Below, piece after piece: positions 40,897 through 58,958 of a stretch of DNA of 64,000 nucleotides. How positions within the stretch are numbered: the stretch's first letter is position 1; each line of letters begins with the position of its first letter. The position numbers and the translations under genes are program-made. The DNA lies in the NCBI RefSeq assembly GCF_040717445.1, contig NZ_JBFEFL010000001.1, positions 1,116,001-1,180,000 of the forward strand, read 5' to 3'. Under the pieces are notes generated by a model. It was given only the letters and a program-made list of their open reading frames with translations, was not told where the DNA came from and made no database searches. Origin of the DNA: Qipengyuania sp. JC766. GTDB lineage: Bacteria; Pseudomonadota; Alphaproteobacteria; Sphingomonadales; Sphingomonadaceae.

Positions 40897-41787
40897 ATGG
40901 GCGTGATGCAGCATCTGGACGGCGAGCCGCTTCATGACGAAATTGCCTTCGACGAAGACGCCCGCGCGCTGTTTGCTCGTAATTACCCGGAAGTGCCGCA
41001 TAGGCTGACGCACGGCCTGTCCCTGCGAAGCGAGATGCAACTCGATGCGTTGGCAGAACTGGCCGAACGCCTTCCGGAAAACTCCATCGAGTACAACCGG
41101 GGCGACGTGCCGATCGGGGTGGACGGCAAACCGGGATCGACCGGGCGCTCAATCGGAGAAACGATTCGCGCCATCGCCACCAGCAACAGCTGGGCAGTCC
41201 TGAAGAACATCGAGCAGGATCCCGAATACGCGGCCCTGCTGCACGCGCTGCTGGGCGAACTCGCACCCCAGATCGAAGCGACGACCGGCGAACTTCTGAC
41301 GCCGCAGGGCTTCATATTCATCTCCTCGCCGAACGCGGTCACGCCCTATCATTTCGACCCGGAGCATAACATCCTCCTGCAGTTGAAGGGGACGAAGGTC
41401 ATGACCCAGTTCCCTGCGGGAGATGCGCGCTTCGCGCCCGATCGGGTGCACGAAAGCTATCACCTTGGCGGCGCGCGAGAGCTCGTGTGGGATGACGCAT
41501 TCCTTTCCGACGGTCGCGAGTTTCCGCTGGGACCGGGGCAGGCCGTCTATGTTCCGGTCATGGCGCCTCATTTCGTGCGCAACGGGCCGGGAAGCTCGAT
41601 CTCTCTCTCGATCACCTGGCGGTCGAACTGGTCCTATGACGAGGCGGGAGCCCGTTGCTTCAACGCGATCCTGAGGCAGGCCGGAATGAACCCGAATCCG
41701 CCGCATCGCTGGCCGGGGAGCAACCGGTGGAAGCGTCTCGGTTTTCGGGCCTGGCGCAAGGTCTTCGGTCCGCCTTCCCCGTCATGA
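40897..41787 (+). CDS. JmjC/cupin-like Fe(II)/2-oxoglutarate oxygenase
   Basis: 296 residues. The facial triad of a JmjC-type hydroxylase is visible: His152-x-Asp154 in TPYHFDPEHN and His225 in MAPHFVRNG, on a double-stranded beta-helix. Lys164 in LLQLKGTKVM fits the 2-oxoglutarate carboxylate site of FIH-like enzymes. Such enzymes hydroxylate protein, peptide or small-molecule side chains. It is sandwiched between two GNAT genes, one base from the first and overlapping the second (ATGA), so the three products probably act on one substrate. Confidence 0.85.
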   Translation: MGVMQHLDGEPLHDEIAFDEDARALFARNYPEVPHRLTHGLSLRSEMQLDALAELAERLPENSIEYNRGDVPIGVDGKPGSTGRSIGETIRAIATSNSWAVLKNIEQDPEYAALLHALLGELAPQIEATTGELLTPQGFIFISSPNAVTPYHFDPEHNILLQLKGTKVMTQFPAGDARFAPDRVHESYHLGGARELVWDDAFLSDGREFPLGPGQAVYVPVMAPHFVRNGPGSSISLSITWRSNWSYDEAGARCFNAILRQAGMNPNPPHRWPGSNRWKRLGFRAWRKVFGPPSPS

Positions 41788-42833
41788 CCGCCTTGCCTCC
41801 CGCCGACGATTTCGCCGCTTTCGTGACCGACTGGTCTGCGCTGGACGCACTTGCCGCAGGTGAGCATCCGGCGCGCCGGTTCATGCGGGCTGCATGGTTC
41901 GCTTCCGGCACCGATGCCGCGGAAACCGTCGTGCCGATCCGTTCCGGCGATGGTGAATTGCTCGCGGCCATGCCGCTTTCGAAGAAGGCATTCGGGCCGG
42001 TGGGTATCTCGCAGATTGCCGGGCCCTACTGGCCTTTTCGCGGTTTTCCCGTGCGCGCCACGGCGGACGCGAATGAGCTTCGCAAGGCATTTTCATCGAA
42101 ATCGCTTGGCAGGGAACTCGGACCTGTCTGGCGGCTCGGCCCCGCTGTGGACGACGATCCCTCGCTCGAGGCGACCGTCCGTGCAGCCACAGCCGCGGGC
42201 TGGACCGTGCTGTCCCGGCCAGTTGGCTCGCTGTTCGTCCTGGACCTGAAGGCCCTTCGTTCGGGCGGGAACTGGCCTTCCAGCAAGGGCAAACAGAAGG
42301 ATCGCTGGCGGGTCCGGCAGCTGGGAAAAACGGGCCCCGTGACGATCCGCGCCTTTGATGGCAGGAACTGGACGGAGGAAGACCGCGAGGCGATCGCGCG
42401 AATAGAGAGCAATTCCTGGGTGGGGCAGCTCGAAGAGGGAGGCGATACCAAGTTCGCTGATCCGGCGCTTCGCAAGACCTGGACGCAAATGAGCCGTGAT
42501 CCTGTCCTGGCAGGCATGATCCGCGGGCACATCCTGCATGTCGGCGACACGCCGGCGGCCTTCACTTTCTGCCTGGAGACGGGCGACACGCGCTATTGCA
42601 TCGCAAACAATTTCGACCAGCGGTTCAAGAATTTCAGTCCCGGTCGCGTGCTGCTGTATTACGATTTCGAGGACGCCGCCGACCGGGGCATCGCCCGCAT
42701 CGATTGGGGTTTGGGAGACGGCGGCTACAAGAGTCAGATGGGGGCGACGCAGGGATCCTCGGTTTCCGACTTGCTCTTCGTCCGCAGCAGGTTGCTGGCA
42801 CCCATCCTCAAACGGATCTGGCAGCGCGGTTGA
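41784..42833 (+). CDS. GNAT-superfamily protein of the CelD/BcsL (Acetyltransf_6) type, second of two
   Basis: 349 residues from an ATG overlapping the JmjC stop. Same family as the gene at 39744: KGKQKDRWRVRQLGKTG in the linker, then HILHVGDTPAAFTFCLETGDTRYCIANNFDQRFKNFSPGRVLL. The two are clearly diverged, so they are more likely to form a heteromer or act in sequence than to be a recent copy. tesB starts about 30 bases later. Confidence 0.83.
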   Translation: MTALPPADDFAAFVTDWSALDALAAGEHPARRFMRAAWFASGTDAAETVVPIRSGDGELLAAMPLSKKAFGPVGISQIAGPYWPFRGFPVRATADANELRKAFSSKSLGRELGPVWRLGPAVDDDPSLEATVRAATAAGWTVLSRPVGSLFVLDLKALRSGGNWPSSKGKQKDRWRVRQLGKTGPVTIRAFDGRNWTEEDREAIARIESNSWVGQLEEGGDTKFADPALRKTWTQMSRDPVLAGMIRGHILHVGDTPAAFTFCLETGDTRYCIANNFDQRFKNFSPGRVLLYYDFEDAADRGIARIDWGLGDGGYKSQMGATQGSSVSDLLFVRSRLLAPILKRIWQRG

Positions 42834-42863
42834 CGGCCGGTGCCGCGTTTCGCATGGCGAAGC

Positions 42864-43760
42864 GTGCACGAAAACACCGATCCCGCCCGCCTCGTCGACG
42901 ACCTTGTCTCCCTGCTCACGGTAGAGCCGACCGACGATCATCACTGGCAGGCGAAGCCGCAACCGGGCGGCGTCGGGCGCGTCTTCGGGGGGCAGGTCAT
43001 TGCCCAGGCACTGCAGGCGGCGCAGGGCACGGTCGGCGATGGCAAGATCGCGCATAGCCTCCACGCCTATTTCCTGCGGGGCGGAAAAGAGGGACCGCCA
43101 ATCGATCTCAGGATCGCGCGCGATTTCGACGGCCGCAGCTTTTCCAACCGGCGCGTGGTGGCCAGCCAGTCTGGCGAGCCGATCCTCAACCTGACCGCCA
43201 GCTTTCAACGGCCGGAGACGGGCATCGAGCACCAGCAGTCTTCGATGCCGACGGTAACGCCGCCCGAAGAGCTCGTGTCCGACCAGGAGCTGCGCCGCAA
43301 GATGGTCGAGAAGCGGCGCGATGATATGTCGGAGGCGCAACTGGCGATCCTCCTGCGCCCCCGTCCGATCGAAATCCGCTCACCCGATGCGCGGCACTGG
43401 ACCAATACCGAGCCGCGCGAGGCACAGCTTGAGAGCTGGTTCCGGACGGTAGCCCCTCTGCCGGACGATCCGGCCCTGCACCGTGCGGTCATCGCCTACG
43501 CCAGCGACTACACCCTTCTTGGCACCAGTGCCCTGCCCCATGGATTGTCTTGGATGCGCAACGAAATCGTGGGCGCCAGCCTCGATCATGCCATCTGGTT
43601 CCATCGCGACGCCCGCGCCGACGAATGGCTGCTTTACAGCACCGACAGCCCTTGGAGCGGCTCCGGCCGGGGATTCAACCGCGGCAGCATCTATGACCGC
43701 AAAGGCCGCTTGGTCGCCAGCGTGGCACAGGAAGGGGTGATGCGCAGACAGAAGGGCTAA
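42864..43760 (+). CDS. tesB: acyl-CoA thioesterase II (TesB)
   Basis: 298 residues, two fused hotdog domains. TKPQPGGVGRVFGGQVIAQAL-like text in the N-terminal domain and RAVIAYASDYTLLGTSALPHG and HDHAIWFH-like text in the C-terminal domain are characteristic. Hydrolyses medium- to long-chain acyl-CoA. GTG at 42864 (VHENTDPARLVDDL) matches the usual start; GTG at 42840 would add eight residues. Transcription ends at the shared hairpin 22 bases downstream. Confidence 0.92.
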   Translation: MHENTDPARLVDDLVSLLTVEPTDDHHWQAKPQPGGVGRVFGGQVIAQALQAAQGTVGDGKIAHSLHAYFLRGGKEGPPIDLRIARDFDGRSFSNRRVVASQSGEPILNLTASFQRPETGIEHQQSSMPTVTPPEELVSDQELRRKMVEKRRDDMSEAQLAILLRPRPIEIRSPDARHWTNTEPREAQLESWFRTVAPLPDDPALHRAVIAYASDYTLLGTSALPHGLSWMRNEIVGASLDHAIWFHRDARADEWLLYSTDSPWSGSGRGFNRGSIYDRKGRLVASVAQEGVMRRQKG

Positions 43761-43782: not shown

Positions 43783-43810
43783 AAAAAGGCCTCCGAACGG
43801 AGGCCTTTTT
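43783..43810. terminator. bidirectional terminator shared by tesB and the 11-codon ORF
   Basis: A 13-bp palindromic stem (43783-43795 with 43798-43810) with A-run on the left and T-run on the right works on both strands. It ends tesB from the left and the micro-ORF/EAL transcript from the right. Confidence 0.88.
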
Positions 43811-43829
43811 CACGTCAAATGAAAGGATC

Positions 43830-43865
43830 TTAGCTGTAGATCCAGTCCCAGATCGAACGGAACAT
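43830..43865 (-). CDS. 11-residue micro-ORF (MFRSIWDWIYS) with strong ribosome-binding site
   Basis: A 12-codon ORF ending in TAA. AGGAG lies seven bases upstream of the ATG (sequence TAGGAGAATTGTTATG), one of the best Shine-Dalgarno sites in the window. The peptide has two Trp, one Tyr and one Phe and would be a short amphipathic aromatic peptide. The transcript then meets a strong terminator 20 bases after the stop. It is 60 bases downstream of the EAL gene on the same strand, so it may be its last cistron; a weak promoter (TTTACA, 17 bases, TACTCC) inside that gap would allow a transcript of its own. No homology can be checked here. Confidence 0.5.
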   Translation of the reverse strand: MFRSIWDWIYS

Positions 43866-43925
43866 AACAATTCTCCTAGCTGCGTCACCAGCAGGAGTAT
43901 GTTAACCTTAACTGTTTGTAAAGCA

Positions 43926-46217
43926 TTAACCCTGTTGAATCTTGGGCCTCAGACTATCGTTCTGTAAAACAAGGATTTCCCGAAACTCGACCAAGTGAAG
44001 GGGCCGGGAAATGTAAAAGCCCTGCCCCGTGCGGCAGCCCATCTCACGCAACAATCTGTATGATTCGGCGTCCTCAATCCCCTCTGCGACAGAGTGCATC
44101 TCCGACTCCTCCGCCATGCGCACGACATTCGAAACGATCGCACGCGCGCGCGAAGATGACGCCAATTGCCGGACGAACATCTGGTCGATCTTGATCTCGT
44201 CGAAGGGAAGCTCGAACAATGCCTCGAGGTTCGCACTTTCGACGCCGAAATCGTCCATGGAGAAGCGGATTCCCGTACGCCGGATCTCCTCGAACACGTC
44301 CCTCGCCGACCGGAAATCCTCGATGCGAGCCGTTTCGGTGACTTCAATGGCAAGGCTCGCCGGATCGACCTCGAACTTGCGCAGATTTTCCTCGAACAGA
44401 TCTGCGATTCGGTTGTCCACAAACTGGATCGCCGAAACATTGATCGAGATCTTGGGCTGGTGGCCGTGTTCGCCGAGCATGGACGCGGCGCGCAAGCTTT
44501 TCAGCACGACGCGCTTGGTCAGTTCGTCCAGCCTTCCGGCGCGTTCGCATTGCAGGATAAAGCGCGCTGGCGAGATTTCGCCCCGTTCCTCGTCGACCCA
44601 TCGTGCCAGCGCCTCGGCCCCCTCGATCATTCCCGTTCGCAAATCCACCTGCGGTTGAAGCTTGATCGAAATGCGGTCTTCCGAGAGCGCCGTTTCCAGT
44701 CGCGCCTGCAGAGAATAGTCCCACGTATCTCCGTTCTCTTCGAGTTCGGAGATAACGAAGACGGGGCGATAGGCTTCGCGCGCTTGGTCGGCGGCTGCAA
44801 TCGCCGAGCTCAACCGGCTGGCTATCGGCTTGCCGGTTCCTTCGTCCGCGCCGAAGGTCAGCGAAACATCGAGAGCACGGTCGCCCGTCGCGATCGACTG
44901 AGACGCAACCGCTCGCAGCCCTTCGAGATGCGCCTGCAGGTCGAGGTCTGGGGTCTTCTTCAGAGCAAAGGCAAAATACTTCCCGCCGTCGTAATAGATC
45001 GCCGTCCCCGAATCGCCGAGTGCAAGGCGGGAGGCGATCTGCCTCAAATAGCCAGCGCGTTCTCCTTGCGGCAGGTTGGCGAACATGGCGTCGAGCCTGG
45101 CAATTTTCGCCACAACTATGGCATGAGACGGTCCATGGTCACCGTTCTCGACATCACGCTGGAGGGCGGCGAAATTCGGTAGCTTCGTCCGGTTGTCGAT
45201 GTAGACGTGCCGCCGCTTGTAGCGCGCTATCGCGCGCAGCATCGCGTACCAGGCGCCGAGCAATGCAGGTTCGGAAAAGGTGATGCGGATGCCGAATTTA
45301 GCGCTCAGGACGAAGACGACAAGAAGCGCCGCTACCCACGAACAATAGAACAGGCGCCTCGCCCTGTCCTTCTTGAATTTCGCGGCCCCGGCGATGAGTG
45401 CGATGGCGAAAAGCGCGAAAACGATCCAGGGCGCGGTGTAGCCCGTTCCCCGTTTCAAGGTTTCCGCTCCGATGATGTGAATGACGCTCGACGGTACTAT
45501 TCCGGCGTCCGGCACCTTCACGAGAACAGAATTCGGCCCTGCCTCGCCAATGACAACCGTCTTGCCGCGCAAATCGGTCGCGGGAATTCGCTTAAGGTCC
45601 AGCGCCGAGATACGTGGGATCGTTGCCGGGTCGATTGTGTAATCGGGTAGCACGAAGGACCGCGATGTATCTTCGCCTGCGATCGCGAAACTGAGCGATT
45701 CCAGTTCGGCCCCATCCCAGGACTGCCGGGCTCCTATATCCCACACGAAGCCGAGAAAGTCGGTCTGATAGTCACGGCTTACCTGCGGCATACCCCTGGT
45801 AAAGAAGGGATCCGTTTCGGAATAGGTCTCGCTGTCGTGGAAATCGCTTCGCACCGTGCGGGTCAGAAGGACCCTATTGCGATTGGCCTGAAGTACCGAC
45901 CGCAAGTCGTCATTGGTCCGGTCGGAGCGGCTGAGCTTGATAGGAAGATCGACGACGATCGTTTCGGCATTGGAATCGGCAAGACGTCCTAGGACCTCGG
46001 CAAGCTGGTCGTTTTGCTCGCTGTTGCTGGGAAACTTGCTCCCATCCATCTCGACGAAGACAATATCGCCGCTCGCCGAATGATCGAAGAACTTCGACTG
46101 GGTCGTCCACACCCCGATATCGAGCGGTCGCAACAACGTGACCAGCCCCACCACGAACGCGACGAGGGTCGCGATCACAGCGTGGCGGAGCCGTATGTTG
46201 CTGGTCAGTTTGCGCAC
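43926..46217 (-). CDS. CHASE2-degenerate GGDEF-EAL cyclic-di-GMP phosphodiesterase
   Basis: 763 residues. Membrane helix (about 13-29), CHASE2 extracytoplasmic sensor (about 33-255), two more helices (about 263-278 and 291-307), a GGDEF-like domain (about 335-490) and an EAL domain (about 505-750). The GGDEF motif is GGKYF (411-415), so it should not make c-di-GMP. The EAL domain keeps its catalytic set: Glu535 (EAL), Asn593, Glu625, Asp655-Asp656, Lys676, Glu712 and Gln732. Predicted role: hydrolysis of c-di-GMP in response to an envelope signal. Confidence 0.92.
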   Translation of the reverse strand: MRKLTSNIRLRHAVIATLVAFVVGLVTLLRPLDIGVWTTQSKFFDHSASGDIVFVEMDGSKFPSNSEQNDQLAEVLGRLADSNAETIVVDLPIKLSRSDRTNDDLRSVLQANRNRVLLTRTVRSDFHDSETYSETDPFFTRGMPQVSRDYQTDFLGFVWDIGARQSWDGAELESLSFAIAGEDTSRSFVLPDYTIDPATIPRISALDLKRIPATDLRGKTVVIGEAGPNSVLVKVPDAGIVPSSVIHIIGAETLKRGTGYTAPWIVFALFAIALIAGAAKFKKDRARRLFYCSWVAALLVVFVLSAKFGIRITFSEPALLGAWYAMLRAIARYKRRHVYIDNRTKLPNFAALQRDVENGDHGPSHAIVVAKIARLDAMFANLPQGERAGYLRQIASRLALGDSGTAIYYDGGKYFAFALKKTPDLDLQAHLEGLRAVASQSIATGDRALDVSLTFGADEGTGKPIASRLSSAIAAADQAREAYRPVFVISELEENGDTWDYSLQARLETALSEDRISIKLQPQVDLRTGMIEGAEALARWVDEERGEISPARFILQCERAGRLDELTKRVVLKSLRAASMLGEHGHQPKISINVSAIQFVDNRIADLFEENLRKFEVDPASLAIEVTETARIEDFRSARDVFEEIRRTGIRFSMDDFGVESANLEALFELPFDEIKIDQMFVRQLASSSRARAIVSNVVRMAEESEMHSVAEGIEDAESYRLLREMGCRTGQGFYISRPLHLVEFREILVLQNDSLRPKIQQG

Positions 46218-58883: not shown

Positions 58884-58958
58884 GCCCGGGTAGCTCAGTG
58901 GTAGAGCAGACGACTGAAAATCGTCGTGTCGGTGGTTCGACTCCGCCCCTGGGCACCA
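58884..58958 (+). tRNA. tRNA-Phe (GAA)
   Basis: 75 bases including encoded CCA. The acceptor stem GCCCGGG pairs with CCTGGGC (one G-U), the D-arm is GCTCAGTGGTAGAGC, the anticodon loop is CTGAAAA with anticodon GAA at 58916-58918, and the T-arm contains GGTTCGACTCC. It lies between yacG and purC. Confidence 0.97.

Follow-up and report, generated by a model that had tools for sequence, protein, structure and literature searches.

Genes and features at the locus

The micro-ORF lies on the minus strand of the window, by which we mean the whole 64-kb stretch of DNA analyzed here. It reads from an ATG at 43865 to a TAA ending at 43830 and begins ∼60 nt beyond the stop codon of a gene for a CHASE2-EAL protein (Table 1). 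As the original prediction had described, the ORF comprises 11 codons with AGGAG 7 bases upstream, and a hairpin begins ∼19 nt past its stop codon. The window holds no gene downstream of the micro-ORF on the same strand; a convergent thioesterase gene lies there instead.

Table 1. Features of the micro-ORF locus (positions in the window)
Feature	Position	Strand	Remarks
Micro-ORF MFRSIWDWIYS, 11 codons plus TAA	43865-43830	-	Orthologues conserved; purifying selection specific to this frame; lengths differ by multiples of three
Shine-Dalgarno (SD) sequence AGGAG, 7-nt spacer	43873-43877	-	AGGAG/AGGGG-like site kept in aligned relatives
-10-like TACTCC, 17-bp spacer	43894-43899	-	Inferred position; second base A in 46/50 relatives
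GGTTAA in promoter spacer, possible regulator half-site	43902-43907	-	Conserved in 44/51 sequences
-35-like TTTACA	43917-43922	-	TTGACA in three relatives
Upstream GGTTAA repeat, overlapping EAL stop codon	43926-43931	-	Retained also with the EAL stop at another position
Putative SD-masking hairpin (-10/start region paired with SD)	43873-43897	-	Per-sequence folding, arm-swapping test
Bidirectional intrinsic terminator, 12-bp stem	43783-43810	.	Placed to end the micro-ORF RNA and, on the plus strand, the thioesterase gene
CHASE2-degenerate GGDEF-like-EAL protein, 763 aa	43926-46217	-	Conserved genetic partner
Convergent acyl-CoA thioesterase (TesB type)	42840-43760	+	Neighbor in only some relatives

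Conservation and selection on codons

Named genomes were searched with a profile of the upstream EAL protein, which yielded 18 loci of the Erythrobacteraceae type. An orthologous micro-ORF was present in all 18, each time with an SD sequence, a promoter-like block and a terminator, and at a distance of ∼60 to 72 nt from the EAL stop codon; a DNA search of the family revealed the same arrangement in other genomes. The encoded peptides include MLRSIWDWIFN, MFRSIWDWIFDN, MERSWFWEWVFN and MWSIWKWLLG, and ORF lengths differ among relatives by multiples of three. Among the single-base codon differences in the seven-codon core, which are pairwise counts and not independent events, 48.5% (0.485) were synonymous in the coding frame versus 16.2% (0.162) expected, and the share in the other two frames was at expectation. 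This is the opposite of the pattern that the original prediction had named as speaking against a gene, namely, codons that are not conserved while the flanking DNA is.

An unbiased scan of both strands for an SD sequence, a start codon, at most 40 codons and the motif [FIW][WY]xW matched exactly one site in the window, which is the micro-ORF itself. The same scan of the loci of 18 relatives (231 kb, both strands) returned only the orthologous site, one per locus. We conclude from these sequence comparisons that the micro-ORF is an unannotated coding gene under purifying selection, and the ORF for MFRSIWDWIYS is almost certainly a real, translated gene. No paralogue was found in its own genome by DNA search or promoter motif search, and the sequence model described below gave one match there.

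Linkage to one lineage of CHASE2-EAL proteins

The gene upstream of the micropeptide always encodes an EAL protein of ∼750 to 810 aa; of 19 such proteins checked, all matched EAL and 15 matched CHASE2. Genes downstream of the micropeptide differ between genera, and in relatives the downstream gene is often convergent. On sequence inspection, the GGDEF-like part of the partner protein is degenerate. Its EAL catalytic residues are invariant, and it is therefore probably an active phosphodiesterase.

We applied a profile of the EAL protein to 120 genomes (96 genera), setting full-length relatives apart from other EAL proteins, and classified the downstream ORFs by hand. An SD-led, Trp-bearing micro-ORF was observed downstream of nearly every orthologue (e.g., MKNQKSRPVRGFWDWLFGGSGGAAGGKG and MAKRTKQPVRGFWDWLLGGGWSN) and behind none of the paralogues. 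In the EAL tree, 42 of the 44 orthologues are accompanied by the micropeptide, the other two having degenerate versions, and it occurs in 0 of 15 members of the paralogous clade, which forms one branch with support of 100/100. The association between peptide and lineage had a Fisher P value of 3e-12, with no correction for relatedness. Among the 42 peptides, a few have diverged, with no WxW in MWIIEALFGTGRR or MFWRFFHDVFGRR, and the ORF of locus L131 was seen only in part. Since some orthologues carry diverged or degenerate peptides (MWIIEALFGTGRR, MLLRILFGY and one GTG-start form), the micropeptide is not indispensable to the enzyme.

These genome comparisons show that the gene follows one orthologous CHASE2-EAL lineage throughout the Sphingomonadaceae (in the GTDB sense). 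Co-occurrence with one enzyme lineage, by which a small-protein modulator can be judged, was thus found. Together with the conservation and the codon-level selection, this family-wide linkage gives strong support to the suggestion of a real micropeptide with ties to a c-di-GMP phosphodiesterase. Such linkage can also reflect shared regulation or ancestral position and not physical interaction. The paralogous CHASE2-EAL clade (L219 to L233) is found in the same family, sometimes as a second copy in the genome, and is without the micropeptide.

Reach of the family and forms of the peptide

A sequence model of promoter plus ORF matched 65 of 398 genomes of the family at an E value of ≤0.01, usually once per genome, and ∼60 of these 65 matches were judged real on inspection. 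No credible match was obtained outside the family among 385 genomes of the class and 398 of the order. Weak matches there (L077 to L080, L172 and L178) had E values of at least 0.0015 in the class search and at least 0.0009 in the order search and were not accepted; inspection of two of them, L172 and L178, showed no EAL gene and no WxW ORF.

The micropeptides of the family are Trp bearing and 10 to 38 aa long, with a common core of [FI]W-x-W-[LIF]-[FL] that is often followed by G. Divergent and longer members recognized on inspection include MRRTIWDWLFGGRHG, MWNFWEWLLGDGHRKR, MSNRKTMQAPKARTAQSARGFWEWLLGGYYR, MKKIKKTQKGIWEWLLGGGWGGTGSGG and MGWFWRWMGGGGSGNGGAEA. Within this set, the window 11-mer is a miniature form of the family-wide peptide and among the smallest; the EAL tree is unrooted and does not settle the ancestral peptide length. 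In L159, the whole unit is duplicated in tandem (G985:C5:348875-349164), encoding MGRSIWDWLFGRGSRD and MRIWDWLFHRGTR, and each copy has a promoter-like block, SD sequence and terminator of its own.

The longer relatives (20 to 38 aa) matched no Pfam or NCBIfam entry at an E value of ≤1, the 11-mer being too short to scan. The micropeptide had no match in the PDB, plasmid and phage records searched with two longer peptides gave nothing convincing, and Rfam 15 gave no match above the gathering score for the micropeptide locus. No description of the family was found in the literature searched, the coverage of which was partial and is not proof of absence. We regard the micropeptides as a new family that belongs with small proteins linked to membrane signaling enzymes and is unusual for its size.

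Promoter-like block and candidate regulator sites

Upstream of the micro-ORF lies a conserved promoter-like block of the pattern TTTACA-17-TAnTCT with GGTTAA repeats. In the window, this 21-base block is unique in the genome even with up to 1 mismatch allowed. Because TTTACA is followed, after 17 bp, by a -10-like hexamer with a conserved A at its second base, it is likely a sigma-70-type promoter for the micro-ORF. The GGTTAA repeats occur as a spaced pair, GGTTWA-N17..19-GGTTAA, in 33 of 51 sequences, which suggests a regulator site.

These repeats resemble the half-sites of CtrA-controlled promoters of Alphaproteobacteria (TTAA-N7-TTAA; PMC8921679, PMC9437464), which read as GGTTAA/TTAACC-like repeats here. 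In contrast to such promoters, the full TTAA-N7-TTAA site was present in just 1 of the 51 micropeptide promoters, the others having half-sites only (GGTTAA in 44/51), and we did not retain the assignment as a CtrA-regulated promoter. Since full sites are absent, CtrA is only a guess as the regulator. In a Sphingomonas, CtrA has been reported to raise phosphodiesterase gene expression and to lower c-di-GMP (PMC8921679).

Terminator and RNA hairpins

The terminator has a GAAC/GTTC loop and a run of T at its end, and relatives retain its stem, several pairs of which show compensatory changes. It is as strong as the original prediction held; it is not private to the micro-ORF, since the hairpin is bidirectional and placed to end the convergent thioesterase gene as well. 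The fold of the whole 151 nt was strong (z = -5.7). RNAalifold on the whole alignment recovered the terminator only, because the other hairpins shift register between sequences, and for the same reason we turned to per-sequence folding and an arm-swapping test.

The hairpin that pairs with the SD sequence had a mean z of -2.9 (25 sequences, per-sequence folding). In the arm-swapping test of 51 sequences, the relatedness among which was not removed, the hairpins' own arms gave -8.36 kcal/mol versus -6.67 kcal/mol for permuted arms, and 0 of 20,000 permutations was as good. The predicted transcription start falls downstream of the hairpin's left arm. Formation of the hairpin is therefore expected in transcripts that continue out of the EAL gene and, to a much smaller extent, in the micro-ORF's own RNA; the modeled value for an unpaired SD sequence was 0.17 in the former and 0.41 in RNA beginning at the predicted start. 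The hairpin thus probably hides the SD sequence in read-through RNA and not in the peptide's own transcript, an idea of two transcripts that depends on the predicted start.

Around the stop codon lies a second hairpin (window 43825-43843, -), which covaries in part and overlaps the last codons. Its arms are GGATC...GATCC in the window and GGCT/AGCC or GGGT/ACCC in relatives, and it is weak (mean z, -1.3).

Proposed function and alternatives

The best explanation in our view, with a probability of about 0.5, is a separately transcribed micropeptide that acts with the CHASE2-EAL phosphodiesterase. The promoter located where the EAL gene ends would drive a separate transcript for the peptide, with the GGTTAA repeats as the sites of regulation. 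In transcripts continuing from the EAL gene, a hairpin whose left arm falls in the -10/start region of the promoter would mask the SD sequence, and because of this masking the peptide would be made mainly from its own transcript, given the predicted start. The Trp-rich core, [FI]W-[DE]-W-[LI]-F, would lie at the membrane surface, where the peptide would tune the activity or stability of the phosphodiesterase and hence c-di-GMP.

It is the genetic linkage that points to the peptide working with the CHASE2-EAL protein, and such action would probably take place at the membrane. The peptide is hydrophobic, near neutral and Trp rich, a composition that suits the membrane interface. The window 11-mer makes a good amphipathic helix (P = 0.018); across the family, amphipathicity relative to shuffled sequences is weakly positive (10 of 60 peptides with P < 0.05; median P, 0.18). 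We put forward, as a tentative extension, that the peptides of this family, reduced to 10 to 12 residues in Erythrobacter-like bacteria, might be dedicated regulatory subunits of a CHASE2-EAL c-di-GMP phosphodiesterase, with translation restricted to the short transcript of their own and the promoter DNA doubling as the anti-SD arm.

A membrane-active or signaling role, as originally suggested, is possible for the peptide. Taken further, the micropeptide could be real and independent of the EAL protein, a membrane-active or stress peptide resembling type I toxins that merely shares the locus, although we consider this doubtful. A hydrophobic peptide this short and rich in Trp, with its SD sequence putatively masked, does resemble such toxins, the tandem duplicate in L159 has a separate promoter, SD sequence and terminator, and the amphipathic tendency would fit. 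However, the micropeptide is tightly tied to one EAL lineage over dozens of genera and is found nowhere in the paralogous clade, no antisense RNA element was recognized in Rfam, and a peptide of ∼11 residues with a central Asp or Glu is too short to span a membrane.

It is also conceivable, by analogy with the rhizobial trp leader, that the peptide or RNA acts elsewhere in trans. That the locus makes mainly a structured small RNA, dual functional or trans acting like rnTrpL/peTrpL, with the peptide in a secondary role or working together with RNA targets, we consider unlikely. A predicted promoter and terminator of its own would define an RNA of ∼100 to 110 nt with a strong fold, a covarying SD hairpin and a partial second hairpin around the stop codon. 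Selection nevertheless follows the codons, the amino acid core is retained across changes in nucleotide sequence, length and hairpin arms, and the second hairpin is weak.

Two further readings are highly improbable. The locus resembles a trp leader in having a short ORF that contains two Trp codons and is followed by a terminator hairpin, but a cis-acting leader peptide or attenuator is refuted by the gene order: the micro-ORF is not upstream of a biosynthetic operon on its strand, the window has no same-strand gene downstream to control, and in relatives the downstream gene varies and is often convergent. The match to the Rfam Phe_leader is below threshold (30.6 bits versus a cutoff of 55) and spans the terminator. 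The original prediction had also raised, more speculatively, a precursor peptide modified by the GNAT-JmjC(cupin)-GNAT enzymes, whose genes lie within ∼4 kb in the window and of which the first GNAT and cupin genes are nearby in 10 of 18 relatives' loci. This was abandoned, as 8 of the 18 peptide-bearing loci lack these enzymes in the fetched stretch, other genera have unrelated neighbors, and in the window the genes are convergent to the micro-ORF with the thioesterase gene in between. Finally, an ORF of 11 codons is common in itself, but a chance ORF between two genes is contradicted by the conservation in 18 of 18 loci, the codon selection, the family matches, the linkage in the EAL tree and the unique scan site, and can practically be dismissed.

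Relation to known systems

Small membrane proteins are known to modulate an adjacent or cognate membrane sensor or enzyme, as MgrB and SafA do with PhoQ. The micropeptide is similarly tiny, is predicted to have a transcript of its own and is linked to a sensory protein of the membrane. It differs in length, most members having 10 to 17 aa compared with ∼50 to 65 aa for the MgrB/SafA type, in having no apparent transmembrane helix or signal peptide, and in its CHASE2-EAL partner, which is known here from linkage.

Type I toxin peptides are short and hydrophobic, with the SD sequence masked by 5' structure and an occasional tandem copy, and the micropeptide, whose SD sequence is predicted to be masked in read-through RNA, is alike in each of these respects. 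Unlike them, it has a charged central residue and a fixed tie to a c-di-GMP enzyme lineage, and no antisense RNA was seen in Rfam. With rhizobial peTrpL/rnTrpL, it shares a short Trp-rich peptide on a short terminated RNA; in contrast, it is unrelated in sequence, follows an EAL gene, does not precede a biosynthetic operon and is no attenuator of a downstream gene (PMC7298713).

ORFs this short are ignored by gene finders. In a database of small ORFs, entries for peptides of ≤10 residues are almost only from Escherichia and have no detectable ribosome sites (PMC11796252). The product of 10 to 12 residues described here has a clear ribosome site and a predicted promoter and terminator of its own; it is under selection at the codon level in many genera and is associated with a specific lineage of partner enzymes. 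From the longer relatives one can see how small a protein can become with its core kept. The micropeptide offers a testable partner of the CHASE2-EAL enzyme and a way into what may be a new input to c-di-GMP signaling in sphingomonads, and it illustrates that functional proteins of some ten residues can be detected by covariation together with synteny.

Neighboring genes in the window

Among the 18 relatives' loci, the order of the first GNAT gene, the cupin/JmjC gene and the thioesterase gene is preserved in 10. The second GNAT gene of the GNAT-cupin-GNAT cluster (window 41655-42833, +) has a homologue in 0 of the 18. A tRNA gene (window 58884-58955, +) is the sole above-threshold Rfam match within the window. 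A copy with 83% identity to a 41-base stretch of the end of the thioesterase gene (window 43704-43744) lies at another place in the same genome (G000:C1:66305-66345).
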